In this document: positions 33,167-58,907 of the stretch, one piece after another
How positions within the stretch are numbered: the first letter of the stretch is position 1
Layout: every line of letters begins with the position of its first letter
NCBI RefSeq assembly: GCF_947623445.1
Contig: NC_135247.1
Span: forward strand, 3,164,501 to 3,228,500
Direction of reading: 5' to 3'
DNA length: 64,000 nt
DNA from: Clavelina lepadiformis
Taxonomy: Eukaryota > Chordata > Ascidiacea > Aplousobranchia > Clavelinidae
Notes under the pieces: model-generated
Databases searched by the model: none
Seen by the model: only the letters and a program-made list of their open reading frames with translations
Told to the model about the DNA's origin: nothing
Program-made: the position numbers and the translations under genes

Positions 33167-33414
33167 ATTTCTAATTGTCTCAATGTTATTTTATTCTTTT
33201 CGGTTTGCAATACGCTTTCGATGACAAAGCGATGCCCCAAGTCATACTCTTCTTAACTATCAATGGATTTCAATAATTTCTTTCACCTTTCGTGATGCAC
33301 AATCATTGATGTACTTCAAGTTGATGACCTCCTCGTGGTGAATCCTGGAAACTGACGTCTGTCAGGCTAATATCAACAACCTGAGAAAAATTAAACAAGA
33401 AGCTACCTAGCAAA

Positions 33415-35527
33415 ATGCGAACTCAGCCCCAGCAGCCTAATACTGACCCGAAGCATGTGCCCTCCTTAGGGCAGGCAGCTATAACTGCCGAACGGGAAGG
33501 TGTCACGCTGTTACAGCTGAATGTTGAAGGTCTCACAAAAGCCAAAATCAACATCTTGGAACACCTTGTGAGTACCCACAAAGTCACCGCCATCCTTCTA
33601 CAAGAAACTCATGTAATCGATATATCCCGGCTCAAGATTGCCGGATACACCTTGGCTGCCCATACCGAGAGCACAATCCACGGCACAGCAACATTTGTGA
33701 AGCAAACAGCCAAATGGAAGCACATGGCAACATGTGATGCTAACTCCGAAACAGAATGGACGGCTGTAGAGGTGGAAGGCGTTAATGTCATCAATGTCTA
33801 CAAACCGCCTCCTGCCAGGCTACTTAAAAATTCCATCCCCACCTTTAGCAGCCCATGTGTTTATGCTGGCGATTTCAACTGCCACAGTACTACCTGGGGC
33901 TACAGCGCTACAAACCACGATTGCGCAGCACTTGAAGAATGGGCCTCGGCCTCCGATGTCCACCTTTTGTTTGACCCCAAACAGCCAGGCAGTTTCTGCT
34001 CAGGCAGATGGAACACCACCTCTAACCCTGACCTGGCTTTCACAAATCTCAACACTGGCCCTAGACCGAGACGTTTTATTCTGGATAAATTCCCAAGATC
34101 TCAACACAGACCATCACTAATAAAACCAACGAACCCAATAGAACCTTTGAAAACAAAACCAGTCTAAAGATGGAACTTCCGGAAAGCCAACTGGCAACAA
34201 TACACTCGATTGGTCGAGTCTGGATCTAAAAAGCTACCAGACCCCAAATCGACCAACTTGAATGTAGCCTACTCTGCATTCTGCCAATTACTCACTGACG
34301 CTGCAAAGAAGTCCATACCACGTGGCCGTCGGCAACACTACATCCCTACATGGGATGTTGAATGCAATAACCACTATGACGCATTCGTGAGTGCTGAGCA
34401 ACCTAGTGATGCTGCTTCCAAGGCCACAGACCTGCTAAACTGCCTTGATAAAAAATGTAAGAAGCGCTGGGAGGATACTGTAAAGGACATTGATTTCACG
34501 CATTACAGCAGAAAAGCGTGGAAGATCTTTAACCACCTCACTGGACGAAACTCCCAGTCAAAACCATGCCCGATTAAAGCAAATTCCATAGCCGGACAGC
34601 TTTTAGCCAATGGCCGTTTTAGTAATGCAGACAAGAACCATGCACGCCAGGTAAAGCAGGAATGCAGTGCACTATGGAAGGCACCTGGACCAGACGGACA
34701 TCTTTCCACGCCATTCACCATCCAGGAACTCTCCAGAGCTATTATGCAGCTGAAGAGCGGGAAAGCCCAAGGACCGGATAACATCCCCCCCAGAGTTCCT
34801 CAAGCAGTGTGGCCCCAAATGTCAAACATGGCTCAACAACTTTTTTTCATCCTGCTTCCGCCGCATGGCGATGCCGAAGATCTGGCGCAGAGCCAATGTT
34901 ATCGCCTTGCTAAAACCTAACAAACCCGAAGACAATCCCAAAAGCTACCGTACTATCTCTCTACTTTGTGTCCCCTACAAAGTCATGGAGAGGCTCCTGC
35001 TTGACCCTGTCGTTGACCCACAGCTCCCACAACAACAGGCTGGATTCCGACGGGGACGATCAACTGTACAGCAGGTGCTGAAGCTCACCGACAACATCGA
35101 GGACTGCTTCGAGCGAAAACAGAAAGCAGGTGTGGTCCTGGTGGACGTCACGGCTGCCTATGACACCGTGTGGCAGCAAGGCCTAACCCTCAAACTTCTT
35201 CGGATGATCCCTGACCGACACCTAGTGCGTTTCATTACTAACATCTTGTCCAACTGCAGTTTCACTCTCAAGACCAGTGATGGAGAAAGCAGCCGCCTGC
35301 GGCGTCTGAAAAATGGCGTACCCCAGGGCTCTACCTTGTCGCCAATGCTTTTCAACATCTACATCAGCAAGATATCGGCAAGAAACAACCTTCTAAGATG
35401 CCTGGTTGGGTCCTCATGGGGAGCATGCACCTCCACCCTTCGTACTGCAGCGCTTGCGATTGTCCACAGTGCTGCGGAGTACGCTGCTCCAGTTTAAGTT
35501 AACAATACTGTTTAAGTTAACAATACT
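33415..35527 (+). mobile_element. Dead APE-type non-LTR retrotransposon (LINE)
   Basis: From 33415 the sequence encodes an apurinic-type endonuclease: LLQLNVEGLTKAK, ILLQETH, CVYAGDFNCHS, TSNPDLAFTN and SQHRPS (consensus SDHRP). The same frame resumes at 34210 after one in-frame TAA (34165-34167). Near the T-run at about 34840 the frame shifts. From 34865 the reverse transcriptase follows: QAGFRRGRSTVQQ, VDVTAAYDTVWQ (motif A) and NGVPQGSTLSPMLFNIY (motif B). The YxDD catalytic segment is missing, because sequence jumps from the motif B region straight to a thumb-like block (ARNNLLRCLVGSSWGA). The element ends in two 18-base repeats (35492-35509, 35510-35527), as some LINEs do. The 5' end may lie near 33.3 kb. 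It is non-functional. The clade is uncertain (Jockey/I/CR1 group by look). Confidence 0.9.
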
Positions 35528-49395: not shown

Positions 49396-49903
49396 CTAAA
49401 ACTTTACGTCAAACGTCAGCGAAGCTAACTCTTGTTGTTTGAAAGTAAAATGAAACTGTTAGAAAAACAGCTGTTTGCTGCCTGTATGCTTTTTATATCA
49501 AAGCTGTTATTCGAAAGTAAACCACTCGATCGTTGTCGTAACATATGGCGTCTTGTTCTGCTTAAAGCTTCCGATTATATGACGATATGAGAGTATTAAA
49601 ATGCAAGAAATTCCCCAACCTTTGATCGTGACTGGATTACAGCGCTAACGTTGTTCATTAATAGTTAAAAGCAACAAATGACAGATAAATATATTCTTTG
49701 TTAATTGCGTAAAAATATAAATGAATTTATAAGAAAATTAGACACAATTTTCAAAGAATGGTGTACACAATTTTTTTATTGAAAACGGTGAAAGCGAAGA
49801 CGAAAGAAATTTATCATTATTAATTCTAAGAAACGAACCGTCATATAATTTGTAGGTTTAAGTTAAGTTTATTTTTTTAACAGTTTCAGTGTGAAGTTGG
49901 TTT
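49396..49903. other. Intergenic between scramblase C and Rho-like gene 1
   Basis: About 500 bases without recognised features. It holds the promoter of scramblase C and the 3' end of the next gene. Confidence 0.4.
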
Positions 49904-51186
49904 TTAAGATATCGTGCAGCTCTCCGCTGTGGATTCTTTTTCTGATTTGTTCATGATAATTCTTATCGCTTCGGAGAACAAGTCATTTATCCCTTCCATT
50001 GTCAATGCTGAACATTCCATATACCTTTCAGCTTTGATCATTTTCGACAATTGCCGGCCTTCATCGTGCCTAGAATCGAGAAAAAGACAATGAACGTTTG
50101 TTTCTTTACTTTAGAGAAAGTTTAAAGCTACCGTATATTTGCGTCTAATGAAAAAGCTTGTGAAATCGTGTTTCTGAACGATATACATAAAGTATATAAT
50201 GACAATTCACAACATAATATGGCAATCTTGTGACTGAATTTATTTTTGTTATTACTTTATAGGTTCTTCGCTTCTTTGTCTCCCAGATTTCAAGTTACTT
50301 TGATCACGTCTCAAATCAGATTTTGTTCCAACGAGTAAAATGTTTGTATCCGGTAGATACTGACGTACTTCCGGAATCCATTTCTCAGTTACGTTGGTAA
50401 ATGACTTTCGACTTACCAGAGAAAAACAAATGATAATGAGGTCGGTATTGGCATCGTAGTGGAGTGCTCTGAGTCTGAGACCAATACACAATAACTATGT
50501 ACGGTATAGTTGCAAATGTACAGTGAAAAAGCTTCAAGAGTTTTCTTAATATAGAAAATTACTTTTTGGACGAATATTCCTGCTTTGTTATTTGAAACTC
50601 ACAACGTATGGCAGAAAAATTTATTAACGGAGCATACCAAGGAGAAATATAAAAAAGAAAACCATAATATGTTTTTTGTTGGTCATGCGTTAGGTAAAGC
50701 AGTATATACGACAGCATATCTTGGGATATGTCTAAAAATGAGCAACGGACAAAAGTATTAGGGATTATTTTCTAACAAAGAAATCATACCAACCTAGCGT
50801 AGTCGTCTAGACCGGATAATTCAGTTAGTGTCAATTCATAATCCAGTCCATCTACAGTGGTAAAAGCAGAATAATGCTCGTATACCGTAGGTACGTAGTC
50901 AGGAAAAACACCAGATGTGTAAGCAAGGCATACTGGAGTCTTTCCAACAGCACCGTCGCCAACCAAGATTATATTTAAACGCTTTTGAAATATAATTTCT
51001 TTTTAATTGCCATACATACCGGTAAAACGCACTCAAGTGGCACTAAAATAGAAGGTTACACACAGTATGTCTACCTCAAACTATAGCATATCTATTACAA
51101 AATCCAAGCTCATATGTATCATATTACACGTATATCTAGAATTTCATGAAACAACCTTTTCTTATATATAGGTAACCCACCTTCAT
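49904..51186 (-). CDS. Rho-family small GTPase 1 (switch II Gln replaced by Leu)
   Basis: Rho-type molecular switch. Exons: 51186-51181 (only Met-Lys, tentative), 50981-50794, 50474-50256, 50069-49904, giving 192 aa. P-loop GDGAVGKT is intact. Switch I YVPTVYEHYSA keeps the effector-loop Thr. The Rho insert region follows TKSD. The base motif ECSAL and a C-terminal CaaX box CTIS (farnesyl-type) are present, so membrane anchoring is expected. The usual DTAGQEDY reads ELSGLDDY: Asp57 becomes Glu and the catalytic Gln61 becomes Leu, the change that locks Rac/Rho/Ras in the GTP state. Inference: GTPase-defective, constitutively GTP-bound, like atypical Rho proteins. The first exon was chosen because it is the nearest ATG with a phase-0 donor. 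Tandem with two relatives on the same strand. Confidence 0.85.
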
Positions 51187-52233
51187 GTATAGAAATCGAA
51201 GCCAAACTTGCTACGTCAGGTAATCTTTCTTTAGCTAAAGCAAATGTTGGTGTCAGAGGACGAATTATAATAGTGTAAGAACATGATTAATGCTTTGCAT
51301 AATGAATTATTTCATATTAGTCAGATGGTACAAATCATTACTATTCATATTACTACACCGTAATGCGCTGTAACCTGCCATATGTGCGAATGAAATATAT
51401 GTGTCAACTAACGTAAATGCGACTTATATTAGTATACAACTATACATAATTCGGTCTTACTTAGTTTCTTTTATGGCTTCTAACCAAGATTTTGTGGTTA
51501 AGTTATGTATTTTGTAATTTACTCTCCATTATTCTATTGGTTTGTTTGGTTTCAAAGGCCAATCAAAGTCGTTCCTGCCACACTACATAGCTGATATGTC
51601 ATAACACAGTCCATCAGAACTGCATGTCCCGTTCAAATCGTGTTATTGGCATTTGCCGAACTACTTCAGCTGATTACCATGCAGTGCAGTACTGCCTGCA
51701 GGCAAACGATGATTGGCTACAACTACACTGAAGCAAACGATTGACACTTTCCCGTAGTAGTCTCTACGTATAGTCGACTTTAAAAGCCTCGCTTGTAATT
51801 TTGCGTATTTTAGCGAGCTCTGCAAAAAAGCTATCAATGGTTAATGTACACACAAGAGCGAGACGCACTTTGGCACCAATTATGTGGGCGTGAAAATGTT
51901 TGAAAGACACCTTGTTCAGGAATACTTATATTTCTAGTATTATACGCTGACACAATTGTGACAAAAAACCACGATACAACCACAGTTAAAAATGCTCGGT
52001 GTTAAAAATATGCGTAAGCTTTGCTTCCCCCCACACTGTATATGTATATACCGACATGTGCTGAAAATGTTCTCGGGTGCATTACACTGTAAAGATATTT
52101 ATGACAGAGTTAAATTACGTACTCGTTACGGCAAAATTGTCTGATTGAATTCAACAAAAAACACAACCTGTAGCTCATATAACGAAGTACAAGTTAGGAG
52201 TCCGGCTCTAGTCAGCTGCGGCAATAGACGAAT
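51187..52233. other. Intergenic between Rho-like genes 1 and 2
   Basis: Non-coding, AT-rich, with no recognised repeat or RNA gene. It holds the promoter of gene 1 and the 3' UTR of gene 2. Confidence 0.4.
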
Positions 52234-53566
52234 TTAATACATTGTACATGTTTTCGACTTGATGGCTGGCTTTTTCATTTGACGTACTTGTAACGCAGAA
52301 GAAAATATTTGATTCACCGTGGCAATTATCTGTGTTGAACATTCCATGTATTGGAATGCTTTGATCTTTTTCGCTAGGTTGAGGCCCTCTTTGAACCTGT
52401 ATTGAAAGCAATGTTCATTTAGACATTTTATCAATATTATTATAATTTATAACCATTGATTAAATTTTGTAGAGGTTGAAGTCATCAAATACACTGATTT
52501 TCTACTCAGTTATTTCTATCAACTCCAGATCTGATGCTAACAGTTCCGTGGCATTTCTTCTGTCCGATTGCAATCCGACAAGAAAGAATCTCGCATCCGG
52601 CTGATGTTCTCGCACCTGAGGGACCCATTTTGAAATGACATTTTTAAAGGTAGCTTTTTCATGGATTGCAAAAGCAACAATAAATACATGGGCTGTTGAA
52701 TAAATCCGAGGTCTGTCTCTGCAAGAAAGAAAAGTTGTTTAGCCCAGAACGTTCTGAAGACACCTCCTATATCGAGATGCACAATTACAAATACTTGTAC
52801 TTAATAGATTCAAAGTTTTATCTTTAACCCCATTGCAATGGCGAAAAGCTTTGCCTTGAGCATCATACAACTTCAACGCGTATGTTAGAGCAAGGCTGCA
52901 CCATCACCTTTGGGTGAGCGCTGAAAGTAACGGTACTACTATATCCGTAATAGATTTAAATTCACTAAAGAACTACGTGTAGGTAAAAGATTTTGGTTTA
53001 CAAGATTACTCAGTTAAAAACTGACGCGTAAATAGTTTTACCAGCAGTTACAAATAACAAAATTCTTAATTTGAAGAAACATGTTTTCTATAGAAAAAGA
53101 ACTTTCACAGACAGTTTCAATTTTAATTACCCACAGTGAACTATGGTACGTAAACCAGGAGTTAAATACTTCTCGTTTGCATCGTCGTCGCCAATTTCAA
53201 CCAGCAACATGTGATGTCGTACTCCATCTATGGTGCCACGTACATCGAAAGTGTGGACATTAGTTGGTTTCCGTTCCCTGGTTATGATGGTCAATTCGTT
53301 GCGAGTTAAAAATGCGTTTAACATGGAAGACTTTCCCACGAGGCTATCACCAACAATCACAATCCTTGTCCTATCCAAATCCTGCAGGGCATTAGCTTCG
53401 ATTAAATTTTGAAAAGACAGAAATGGTAGATTTTAATGAGATATTTTAGACCATGATTCAAATCATAGAGTAAGGTCTCGACAATGACAATATTATCACT
53501 ATTGTAATGACTACTATTAATTTGTATTTCCTTCACATATACCTCTGTATCCGCCAATTCTTCCAT
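52234..53566 (-). CDS. Rho-like GTPase 2, strongly degenerate G motifs
   Basis: Exons: 53566-53543 (MEELADTE), 53381-53131, 52718-52506, 52396-52234, giving 216 aa. Introns have the same phases (0, 2, 2) as the flanking Rho-like genes. P-loop GDSLVGKSS is intact and a switch-I-like RKPTNVHTF keeps a Thr. The DTAGQ region is VEIGDDDAN, with DxxG and Gln61 lost, and the guanine-specificity motif TKxD reads LQSD. The helix KATFKNVISKWVPQVREH, then RFFLVG, then AFQYMECS, and a basic tail KKPAIKSKT with CTMY CaaX-like end remain Rho-like. This predicts a pseudoGTPase that may still bind nucleotide weakly. An upstream open exon-like stretch (about 53655-53797, GYCRESQIKLQDAFTEIRRQ) could splice to 53574 and lengthen the N-terminus. 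The chosen ATG is the simplest start. Confidence 0.8.
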
Positions 53567-55807
53567 AATTGCAAGCTGTCGTTCTAGTTCCTTAAATTTT
53601 TAAACGCGATGCAAACTTGCAGTTTCTCTGTCTTCTATTTCTGAGCTTTTTGCTATTTCTTTTACTGGACGCTTCCCAGTGAATTTGCCGTCTTATTTCC
53701 GTGAAGGCATCTTGTAGTTTTATTTGTGACTCACGGCAGTACCCTTGAAGCGCTTTGCTTGGAATTTCACACACGAGGTTAATGTTTCTTGCTCTGCAAA
53801 ATTCCAATTAAGGGCAACAATGTTGATCTCAAACGTCCCTTATCAATACGTCAAGAAACAAGCTGAAACAGCGAATTGGTGCATTCAGAATTGCTTTGGA
53901 GGTGGGGGAACTAAATTCCCGTGTTTTCCAACCTACTAAAAAGCATGCATGGATTTTGGATTTTACGCCTAAAAAAACACTGTATGTAAAACCTTAAACA
54001 ACAATTTTGAAACGTCGTATGCCCGCTTGTTATATCTTTTCCTATAGGTTGTAGCTTATAAGTGTAGTTGCAAACAAGGAAATGAGTTAAACGAGAAAGA
54101 AGGAATACGTAAAAAGGCCTATGGCCCATAATATTTTATGATGGGGGACATAGCCTGGAAGCTTAGCCCCGAAATACGCCAGTAAAAGTAGCCTGTTGAT
54201 GCGATATCAAACTTTTGTCATTGAAATAAGAAAACACGGAGAAAATGTGATGTTTAAACAGCAGGTTTAAAAATGATAAATTTAATCTATAACATTTCAA
54301 CATTTAATCTTATAATCTCATCGATAATCTCACGCTGAGCACTAAATCAAAAACGATGGTAACATAGTAATATGACGTATAGAAATTGTTCGTGTTGATC
54401 ACGAGAGCAAAGACCCGTGTAAAGTATTGGTGGAAAAGAATTCAAACTTCAAATAAACTGCCCGATGTGGAGACTAGAACCTTGATGTACTTAAGGCGGC
54501 TAGTGAATTCACTTTCTCAAATTACATGGCAGTTTAGATTACAGATCATGCCGTCGATACGGTATCGTACATCTTGCAGTACAAACAACGTGACATTTTA
54601 TTTATTGGAATAACTTGCATGATTATGTAGAGAATACAAGCAAAATGGAAACAATTAAAATAACCAGCATTAAATTATATCTTACATAACATATACGCAA
54701 TTTGGAAATATCTCACTTGGTTAACAAAACTTTTTAGGACCAGGTAGGCTATAGCTAAATTCTCAAGTTTAGTCTTGTAACGTTCTGCTTTGAAATAAAA
54801 CTTTAAAAAAGAAGAGAACGAATTTCGAAAAAAAAGTTACTGTACATACATAACAGAACATCATCATCACCAAAAATATGAACATCAAACGTAATAAAAT
54901 GCAAACTGGATTTCAAATAAAATTAAACAGAAGTAGACAGGCATTGTCTTATCTCTCGTTCGGGGAGCGTTCTCGCTCGTAATATACTTCGCTACCTAGA
55001 TTATTGCCCAATGTTCTGTCGGTTATATGTGTTACGAACTTTGTTCCTCACGTATTGTGTAGTTGCTTATCATCGTGTTTTCGTTTGAAGCGTTTTTACC
55101 AATCAGCACCTTTTGCAAGTTTGTTCTTAACTATATTAATCACATGATTTGGTACCTTCGTTAAATATTAAGGTTGTGCGCTTTTTGGAGAGAGACGGAG
55201 GGGTTTTTGAGTCTGTGTCTGGCTGTGACCAACTAAATGTGGCTTTTCAAAGATCATCGGTTTGCTTTATTGGCGTGATAACGTTACACAGTCTAATTAC
55301 GCACAGTTAAGGGTGTTGCGGTTCACCGTAAACGTGAAATTAAGCCTGGCTACATGAATGAGAAAAATCTTCGTTACATATGTATGAGAATATATGTTTG
55401 TTTGGGTGTTAAAATACCTTGAAAATGTGTTGTGTCGTACTAATAGTATTTGACATACAATACGTTTAGTTTATGGTTTGTGAAGGTTTAAAAACAAGTT
55501 TTAATGATTTCAATGTTATTGGCCAACTATACAGTTGCTGATCGTTTTCCTTTAATTTTATATAGTTATAATCAATTTAGTTTTAAAAAATGAATTACAC
55601 TCTTTCCTCCAATTTTACTTTCTCCTGCGTTTTGCTGCTTGCATGTACAATACTTTTAATTTTCCGTCAACGGTTAGCACAAAGATATTTTAGTCAAATC
55701 GGTAAAATCGATTTATTGTACTGCCCCTTGTAAGCAGTGTATGAACGTTTCACTTGGCAATAGTTCGATAAACCTTGTAAATGAGTTGGAGAATATAAGA
55801 GTATGTT
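53567..55807. other. Intergenic between Rho-like genes 2 and 3
   Basis: 2.2 kb with no convincing gene. It contains the possible upstream exon of Rho-like gene 2 (about 53655-53797) and otherwise AT-rich DNA with short random frames. Confidence 0.4.
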
Positions 55808-57164
55808 TCATTTCAAGACATCATGAATTGTGCTTTCAGGGGCATCTTGCTTTAAAAAGATTCTTATCGCTTCACAGAATACGTTGCATACTCCTTCTTT
55901 GGTCCGAGATGAACACTCCATGTATCGAACAGCGCCGATCTCTTCGGCCAGTCGGATGCCCTCTTCCGGTCTAAAATTATTTTTGTTAAACTTTCGTTTT
56001 CAGCTGGTCTGGTTGCTTGCTAGCAGGCAGTAGACGTGGTCACTTGTTTGGATATTAACGGCGTTTGTTATGCTTTGACTGATATGAAATTGTGTGACTA
56101 AACGTGAAAGTTCATTGCACAACTAAGTCACATGGTTTGCAGTTAAGGAAAATATAAACTTACTCCAATGGCTTTGATCGCTCTTCGAACAACTCTTCGA
56201 GTATGTCGGGGTCATTTCTCAAATCGATTTTTGTTCCAACAAGCAAAATATTTGGATTTCGACAATGATGACGTATTTCCGGGATCCATTTTGCAATGAC
56301 GTTTTTGAAGGAAGTTCGGTCAACCACAGAGAAAGCAACAAGAAAAACTTTGGTGCAAGGATAAAATGCTGACCTAAGACTGCAATGAACCAAATATTAT
56401 TCAAAACTTTATTTCATGCATTGCACACTATAACTGGTTGATATAAAAAGTAAAAGAACGAACAAGGCTGATTCAACGCAAGTGCCCGGCTTCATGCAAG
56501 CATCACTAAATGTGAAACACGTCAAATCTACAAGGAACACAGCAATTAAATGAGAACTTCACCAGAATTATTATGTTATAACGAGGCAAACTTTTTGCAC
56601 CCCGTTTGTTATCACCGCATTGATTATAAGTCTGTAACCTTATTGGTTCCATAGGGAATGCAAAACAGTGAATAATATCCGTATAGTTTGTTATCACTAG
56701 CTGGTAACATTGAAGGACCATTTCCGTAATTTAAAAATAAGAACGTTGCCTTGAGATTAGGTTTCATTAAAAGAAATTAATGCTTCAAATCCACTCTGCG
56801 AACATGAAGTAACCCGATCATTGCCTGTCAATGCCTGAATTGCTTTGAATCGCACGTCATTACAGTACATACCTGTCAAAATTTGCACAGCCAGACGTGT
56901 CCCAAAGGCTTAAATTATATATTGTTCCTTCCATAACAATAGTCGCTCTGCGATTTTTAAGAACCGTTGGTGAAGTTACTTCAAGAAATTCGCCACTTTT
57001 ACAAGCGACGCACAACGCTGTTTTACCCACAGCCATGTCACCCACCGTGACGACGTCTAACGCAATTGGACCCTGTATAACATAATATTAACAAATCATA
57101 TGTATACGTAGCATATAGCCTAGGCGTTATAAATTACAATTCCGGCTATTTTTCCAACCTCCAT
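55808..57164 (-). CDS. Rho-family small GTPase 3 (Gln61 replaced by Cys, no CaaX box)
   Basis: Exons: 57164-57138 (MEVGKIAGI), 57072-56873, 56379-56164, 55970-55808, giving 201 aa with intron phases 0, 2, 2 as in the other two genes. P-loop GDMAVGKT; switch I TSPTVLKNRRA keeps Thr; DTSGCANFD replaces DTAGQEDYD, so Asp57 and Gly60 stay but Gln61 is Cys. LLVGTKIDLR is canonical, followed by the Rho insert (DILEELFEERSKPLEPEEG). ECSSR replaces ECSAL. The C-terminus (APESTIHDVLK) has no cysteine, so there is no prenylation, and a soluble protein is predicted. Nucleotide binding looks preserved while hydrolysis is probably slow. The first exon is inferred from ATG, donor and phase. Confidence 0.85.
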
Positions 57165-58462
57165 AATGGTACGCGAAATTAAAATATCTTCAACTGGACA
57201 CCAAAAAAACTTGCTGTTACATATGTTCCTCTTGCTGTATCTACTTACACCATCCTGCATGCATAAAAACACTTAGCCGTTAGAATCACAACATACAGCG
57301 AGTGGGTATTAGCAGGCTTACTAACAACAAGCTGCCATGTCAGAGTTGCTCTTAAATGTAGCAAATTTAAGGTTTTAATTTTTTTAATTTAAATAATTAA
57401 TTTAATTTATTTTTTTTTAATTTTAACAAAACAGATGAAATCAGTGCGATTAGCTTTGGTATGCAGTGTATAGGAACAGTATATTTTCTCATATTCATTT
57501 TTTAAAGTCATGTTTCTCACATTATCTGCTTGGGATGACATTTACTAAATATGTAATCGCAAGCAGATAACTGAGAAAAAATGACAGTACAGCCGCACTA
57601 CTACTAAAAATATGTTGTGCAAGAAAATTCACAACTTCGATACAACTTTGGATAACGGTGGAAGACCAACGCAAAACCCCTACCAGCTATCTGAGCCTCA
57701 AAGTTAAACTATCTGTCACACTGTGCAACAAAATATGAGTTGAAGACGACAACAACGCAAAACTAATTAGAGTGTCCAGCCGGCAGCATCACACGCACGC
57801 GCTTTGGAATGTAAATGACTTAAAATAATTTAAAACAAACCTGACTTAAAATGTCTGCATTGCTATCATGTTATACACTGATACTCAAACTTCAAAATTT
57901 ATCAAATACCGTCTGATGTCATGCATCAGACTAAAGATAATAAAACGTTTAGGACACTGGAAAATTTAAATCGTTTTTACATGATGTTAAGCAAAGGCAA
58001 CTTCAAGTTCAAGATAAGAATTACAAACGTATTGAAGGCCCAAGGTTGGGACACCTACAAATGGTAGTTCCTTACACTTATATTTAATTAATAACAAGTC
58101 GGACTAAAATTCGTTACACACAGGTAATTTTTAATGAAATAATGAAGTGTTGAATTTGTTTATTAAACTTATGGAAAATATGACAAAAAGCGTTTAATAT
58201 ATAGTTGCAAAACTTTAAGCTATAATTTCTTATCACATCAAATTGTTGCAATAATGACGACAGAAATCTTCATATTGCATTGAAAATTAAAATGTTTCGG
58301 ACCGCACAGTTTTTTATCACATGAAATTCACTGAACAATCGAGACATAAGTTCAACATGGGCCTGCTCAATTTATTTACAATACTTTACAATACAATTAA
58401 TACACATTCACTTCTTTTCGCAAAAGTAGAGGGTATATTTGGGAAATAAGTAGATTTTAGAC
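57165..58462. other. Intergenic, AT-rich
   Basis: Upstream of Rho-like gene 3. It contains an A/T-only tract at about 57370-57425. No gene or element ends recognised. Confidence 0.4.
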
Positions 58463-58907
58463 CAGGGGTGGCCAGACCTGCTTCATGCTCGAGCCGCATA
58501 TAACAAATTCCAGTTTTAAAAGAGCCACAACACAAACACAATAAAAATTCAAATTTATTCACTCACAACGAAGTGTAGCTATTGATAAACATTAGTGCTG
58601 CGTGGTGATACTATGAGTCTTCACCAACTCTTTTTGCAATTACAGTATTAGTACTGTATAACGTAACCAAGACTTAAATGTAGTTTTTGGAGTGTACAAT
58701 AATGTAGTTTTTGGAGTGTAATTTCATTATTACTAACAATGAGTCCATTGTTACTACGTGTGATAGAACGCATTGTTTCATAATCTGATCAAACAACTCG
58801 TCTTGACCGGGAAAATGCATGTCTAATTCAACAATGCTAATTCATTAAAGAGCCGCAATTAAAGGCTCAAAGAGCCTTCATTTAAGTTAATGTTTTGGCC
58901 ACCCCTG
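58463..58907. mobile_element. hAT-type MITE (CAGGGGTGGCCA...TGGCCACCCCTG)
   Basis: A 445-bp element with near-perfect inverted ends CAGGGGTGGCCA and TGGCCACCCCTG and internal GAGCCGCA / AGAGCC words typical of hAT non-autonomous elements. Flanked by TTTTAGAC (58455-58462) and TTATAGAC (58908-58915), an 8-bp duplication with one mismatch. No coding capacity. Confidence 0.9.

Follow-up and report, generated by a model that had tools for sequence, protein, structure and literature searches.

Three Rho-type genes in the window

The window, a 64,000-nucleotide stretch of the Clavelina lepadiformis genome (C8:3164501-3228500), holds three genes for Rho-type GTPases, all on the minus strand. Their spliced models encode 195 (gene 1), 216 (gene 2) and 201 (gene 3) residues and have no internal stops. 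A sequence-only reading had placed a cluster of three genes at 49904..57164. The limits were right, with the gene 1 stop at 49904 and the gene 3 ATG at 57164 in the minus-strand models, but the count was too low: there are eight genes, and X4, X6, X7, X8 and X9 lie past the window end. The Pfam Ras profile scored 129 bits for gene 3, 111.5 bits for gene 1 and 66.9 bits for gene 2 against a cut-off of 21.6. The Ras-type G domain of the other five genes was recognised by alignment only.

Each model has four exons, all given here on the minus strand. Gene 1 has a weak candidate first exon at 51099-51113 (MSLDF), found by script from an ATG and the phase-0 donor GTAATA and lying inside the cluster limits. 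Its exon 2 (50794-50981), which ends in a weak donor (GTTGGT), encodes the P-loop GDGAVGKT, switch I and TELSGLDDY; exon 3 (50256-50474) carries the TKSD motif, and exon 4 (49904-50069) the ECSA motif and the C-terminal CTIS. Gene 2 comprises exon 1 (53543-53566, MEELADTE), exon 2 (53131-53381, with the P-loop GDSLVGKS, VEIGDDDANEKY and an insertion after switch II), exon 3 (52506-52718, with LQSD at the TKxD position) and exon 4 (52234-52396, ending in CTMY). Gene 3 comprises exon 1 (57138-57164, MEVGKIAGI), exon 2 (56873-57072, with the P-loop GDMAVGKT and DTSGCANFD), exon 3 (56164-56379, TKID motif) and exon 4 (55808-55970, ECSS motif), which ends in DVLK without a CaaX box. ATG-bearing first exons with phase-0 donors could thus be placed for genes 2 and 3, and that of gene 1 is only a candidate. 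All three genes have phase-2 introns after switch II and ahead of the last exon; in gene 2 the first of these falls beyond the insertion.

The altered Gln61 position and the differing tails described by the sequence-only reading are present in the spliced models. Gln61 is Leu in gene 1 and Cys in gene 3, and the motif is lost in gene 2. Asp57 is replaced by Glu in genes 1 and 2, and Gly60 by Asp in gene 2. The P-loops, which had been described as remaining, do keep GxxxxGK[ST] but are not all intact, as gene 2 has Ser and gene 3 has Met in place of Gly12. In seven array genes the alignment, read by eye, shows a Rho insert where Rac1 has its own, after the TKxD motif and before the SA motif; the insert is two residues shorter in X4.

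Alternative splicing that restores DTAGQ would change the reading of these genes. Neither DxxGQ nor TAGQ occurs in any frame on the minus strand of 49500-58500, so restoration by local splicing was not seen, barring a motif split by an exon boundary. The plus strand of the same interval contains one unrelated DLFGQ.

Extent of the array

Further members were found by whole-genome searches of the 209-Mb assembly (95 contigs) with human Rac1 and genes 1 and 3 as queries. The eight genes span 3,214,404-3,292,933 on C8, about 78.5 kb, and continue past the window end. X4 (3,229,184-3,230,499) is on the plus strand, 0.7 kb beyond the window. X6 (3,275,033-3,282,176), X7 (3,285,006-3,286,426), X8 (3,288,539-3,289,633) and X9 (3,291,261-3,292,933) are on the minus strand. 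One exon plan is common to all eight, and the exons found contain no internal stops. A search for first exons, which covered at most 1500 bases upstream and phase-0 candidates of 9-60 nt, gave none for X6 and only unconvincing ones for X4, X7, X8 and X9. The distant last exon of X6 is a putative assignment, made from frame, phase and order. A C-terminal Cys-x-x-x is present in 7/8 array genes, gene 3 being the exception, and two of these ends, CTMY and CSTA, are atypical. The assembly quality given in PMC10884593 (QV 67.4) makes base errors at key codons unlikely.

Several other features lie in and around the array. The last intron of X6 (about 6.1 kb; L016) contains an LTR retroelement, in which a single open frame encodes reverse transcriptase, RNase H and integrase domains. 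Its two 300-nt direct repeats are identical, so the insertion into the array gene was probably recent. Three pieces of sodium:neurotransmitter symporter (SNF) genes between X4 and X6 (L014:7243-7599, L031:5265-5603 and L015:4863-5348) form a second local repeat family. Adjoining X9 is an intronless open frame of 1006 residues (L018:6040-9057) with weak matches to TPR and DUF294 nucleotidyltransferase profiles, all under the curated cut-offs. Positions 33385-35497 of the window hold a LINE-type element whose endonuclease and reverse transcriptase lie in separate frames.

Residues lost in the array

With 59% identity to human Rac1, X9 is a canonical Rac-like protein that keeps Gly12, Phe28, Pro29, Ala59 and Gln61. 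The other seven genes, here called derivatives, do not. In the order gene 1, 2, 3, X4, X6, X7, X8, position 61 reads L, D, C, A, A, H, D, so that Gln is lost in 7/7. Position 59 reads S, G, S, G, P, A, S (Ala lost in 6/7) and position 12 reads G, S, M, A, G, V, V (Gly lost in 5/7). Positions 28 (F, E, F, A, P, Y, P) and 29 (P, L, L, V, F, S, P) are each changed in 5/7. All three of positions 12, 59 and 61 are replaced in genes 2, 3, X4 and X8 (4/7); gene 1 and X6 retain Gly12, and X7 retains Ala59. Residues G10, G15, K16, T35 and D118 are changed in none of the seven. T17 is Ser in 2/7 and otherwise kept, G60 is changed in gene 2 alone, and Lys116 is Gln in gene 2 and X7.

The derivatives were compared with seven canonical rows: human Rac1 and RhoA, X9, and the Clavelina proteins that we label, by similarity, Cdc42, TC10, Rho1 and RhoDF (the names RhoU and RhoBTB used below have the same basis). 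Forty-nine columns were invariant among the canonical rows, a set that omits stretches absent from the partial ClRhoDF row and relies on a guessed ClTC10 residue at column 112. Gln61 was the most altered of the 49 (7/7 genes). The top six altered columns were 12, 28, 29, 59 and 61 plus column 81, which was altered as often as column 59 (6/7) and for which we know of no activating role. Three other alignment settings gave the same top six columns and the same motif-column values. The hypergeometric value for activating positions among the changed columns, 3e-6, is only descriptive, since the list of activating positions was drawn from reviews after the column ranking was known.

Reviews tie these positions to known behaviours (PMC8305018, PMC8072805, PMC9029563). 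Replacements at 12, 59 and 61 leave the Rnd, RhoH and RhoBTB proteins GTPase-deficient, GAP-resistant and controlled by transcription or modification, and the Rac1 changes F28L and P29S produce fast-cycling proteins. Judged by sequence, the array would have lost mostly residues that serve to turn a Rho protein off or to delay its loading, and those that hold the nucleotide appear mostly kept.

The same table of residues can be read another way. The duplicates may have become binding scaffolds, or pseudo-GTPases, for which the nucleotide state is irrelevant and in which the fold was kept as the cycle residues drifted. The wide variety at position 61, the loss of position 28 in 5/7 genes, the D57 to Glu change in two genes, and the missing G60 and the insertion after switch II in gene 2 all suit such drift. 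Against it, G10, G15, K16, T35 and D118 are intact in 7/7 and T17 is only Thr or Ser, none of which a nucleotide-free scaffold would need. We regard this as an unlikely account of the array as a whole; it is most apt for gene 2 and X4: with their altered switch loops, gene 2 and, more doubtfully, X4 may be pseudo-GTPases.

Position 61 in other Rho-type genes

Gln61 is present in 11/12 other Rho-type genes of the genome with a readable position 61, and the remaining gene has Asn. This control excludes the non-Rho gene L029, the RhoBTB-type gene L030 and the broken Rac pieces of L033. Non-Gln61 residues thus occur in 7/8 array genes and 1/12 others (Fisher p 0.0008, a descriptive value, as related genes are not independent). 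The retention of Gln61 in 11/12 other genes rejects general sloppiness of the genome as the cause.

The Asn61 gene belongs to a RhoA-type tandem of three on C5 (18,565,500-18,575,400; L020), where it combines the P-loop GDAGCGKS with DTAGNEQYDR. The other two members of the tandem retain Gln61, and the Asn61 member is a possible parallel to the array. Two Cdc42-like genes among the 12 controls, at C3:23,155,000-23,164,900 (L027, GDGTSKKT) and C3:22,955,500-22,957,600 (L034, GDKCSGKT), have altered P-loops and keep Gln61, the reverse of the array pattern. The unplaced contig C55 carries, close to its end (L033, C55:52,500-55,908), an exon with 78% identity to human Rac1, followed by Rac-like pieces with in-frame stops. 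No intact Clavelina Rac gene was readable at C55, only this exon and the broken pieces.

Selection on the array genes

Codon models gave an omega of 0.33 for the eight genes and of 0.45, 0.24, 0.38 and 0.27 for four triplets. Omega = 1 was rejected in all five sets (2dlnL at least 25 in each). pN was below pS in 28/28 pairs, with pS close to saturation. The array genes are under purifying selection.

These values bear on whether the derivatives are dying duplicates, recently inactivated or relaxed and heading toward pseudogenes. Their long branches, the CaaX box lost in gene 3, the five genes lacking a first exon and the weak donors of genes 1 and 2 would be expected of such copies. The absence of internal stops from all eight genes, the omega values well under 1 in five sets and the pN values below pS would not. 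Moreover, when X9 was evolved neutrally to 0.2 changes per site, only 77/4000 frames remained stop-free. Pseudogene decay is not favoured by these results, and we consider it highly improbable.

Origin of the array

An alignment with Rho and Rnd families, proposed as a check in the sequence-only reading, was used to build a tree without columns 12 and 61; RhoH is absent from this tree. The array forms one group (99/97). Within it X9 is closest to the canonical proteins, and X4 pairs with gene 2 on long branches (100/99). Rho, RhoDF and Rnd are set apart by a branch with 97/97 support, placing the array on the Rac/Cdc42 side and not with Rnd. Its nearest relative may be either Rac or Cdc42 (75/57). 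A clade of the seven derivatives without X9 has values of 56/5, which allow either a single loss of Gln61 or several. Given one loss, at least 5 further residue changes at position 61 follow (7 state changes in the whole tree including Rnd; ClRhoU, which has no residue at 61, was excluded from this count).

Among solved structures in the PDB, Rac1 gives the best match to X9 (255 bits, vs 230 for Cdc42) and to genes 1, 2 and 3; the gene 2 match is weak (66.6 bits) and level with that of RhoU (66.4 bits). The derivatives are 29-53% identical to Rac1.

A descent from Rnd or RhoH would make the array a diverged branch of an already GTPase-deficient group. The signature at 12, 59 and 61 is common to them, and the X7 tail, CKIF, is the CaaX box given for human RhoH in PMC8072805. 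However, holding the seven derivatives (without X9) together with Rnd1 and Rnd3 was rejected (AU p 7.6e-5), Rac1 is the top PDB match as described above (with RhoU level for gene 2), and RhoH appears only in vertebrates in Table 2 of PMC4669188. Such a descent therefore has very little to recommend it.

The best genome matches of human Rnd3, compared exon by exon within a limited candidate set, are RhoA-type genes. For Ciona, Table 2 of PMC4669188 lists five Rac genes in addition to RhoG, and no Rnd. The Rnd3 matches and the Ciona repertoire both agree with a loss of Rnd in tunicates followed by a second invention from Rac. We tentatively extend this to a broader proposal, which we hold to be rather less probable than its opposite: tunicates, having no Rnd, re-invented the Rnd mode from Rac as an amplified, constitutively GTP-bound array with diversified switch I, dosed by transcription, beside one cycling canonical relative.

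Proposed mode of action

The reading we favour, with a probability of roughly 0.65, is that the derivatives are GTP-locked Rac-like proteins that came from tandem duplication, are controlled by amount and arose independently of Rnd; gene 2, and possibly also X4, may instead be a pseudo-GTPase. A Rac-like gene would have been duplicated in tandem in the C. lepadiformis lineage, with the X9 copy remaining a canonical switch. The other seven copies would then have left the GTPase cycle by losing the hydrolysis residues 61, 59 and 12. Most of them would also have lost the exchange-slowing residues 28 and 29 and kept those that hold nucleotide and Mg. Such proteins most likely load themselves with GTP, retain it and signal constantly. 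If so, their dose would be set by transcription and turnover and not by RhoGAPs, as reported for Rnd and RhoH.

Switch I is canonical-looking in X7 (PPTVFENY) and nearly so in gene 1 (VPTVYEHY). It is changed at positions 39-40 in X6 and X8 and at positions 37-40 in gene 3. Since the loops differ, different partners are probable, or action as decoys. X7 could act on Rac partners; X6, X8 and gene 3 would probably have other partners or be competing decoys. Gene 1, gene 3, X6, X7 and X8 are best read as GTP-holding, GAP-insensitive proteins whose output would follow their amount. We infer the GTP-locked state, the dose control and the change of partners of the derivatives from these residues. 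The loss of Phe28 in 5/7 genes, D57E in genes 1 and 2, G60D in gene 2 and the Lys116 to Gln change in gene 2 and X7 may lower nucleotide affinity and leave some members empty. The variety at position 61 fits relaxed constraint equally well as selection for activity.

The sequence-only reading had proposed a local family of predicted hydrolysis-poor Rho proteins, controlled by expression and not by GAPs, that may serve a cell-shape or immune function. At the level of sequence, the published signature of GTPase deficiency, the open frames and the purifying selection argue for such a family, although its size was underestimated: it comprises seven altered genes and one canonical relative. It is scarcely probable that the derivatives are still regulated switches, with an unusual GAP supplying catalysis in trans. 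Rap carries Thr61 and uses an asparagine of RapGAP, so that Gln61 is not strictly required (PMC3787391), and gene 1 and X6 retain Gly12, yet Gly12 is gone in 5/7 and Gln occurs at neither 62 nor 63 in any derivative.

Comparison with known systems

GTPase-deficient Rho proteins are an already known kind. Among the literature matches listed, in which subscription literature is mostly uncovered, there was no Rac/Cdc42-side tandem array of such proteins that has a canonical relative in place. If the favoured reading is true, the off-switch residues 12, 59 and 61, together with 28 and 29, were lost repeatedly in one array beside a canonical relative. The stepwise exit of a GTPase from the GTP cycle would then be testable inside one genome, and the array, in the sister group of the vertebrates, would have converged on their Rnd and RhoH.

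The array resembles Rnd1, Rnd2 and Rnd3 in the loss of Gly12, Ala59 and Gln61, in the nucleotide-binding motifs that are kept and in the predicted control by amount or modification. It differs from them in lying outside the Rnd group, in lacking the DTSGSPYYDN switch II of Rnd1 and Rnd3, and in consisting of seven tandem copies with differing residues at 61. RhoH, known here by its description in PMC8072805, is changed at the same three positions and shares CKIF with X7, but the vertebrate-only entry in Table 2 of PMC4669188 sets it apart. Rac1 is the best solved match for X9 and for genes 1 and 3, and X9 shares its Gly12, Ala59 and Gln61; unlike Rac1, 7/8 array members lack Gln61. Finally, the changes at positions 28 and 29 recall RhoU/V, RhoD/F and Rac1 F28L/P29S. 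Those fast-cycling proteins keep 12, 59 and 61 as described in PMC9029563, whereas the array combines both classes of change.
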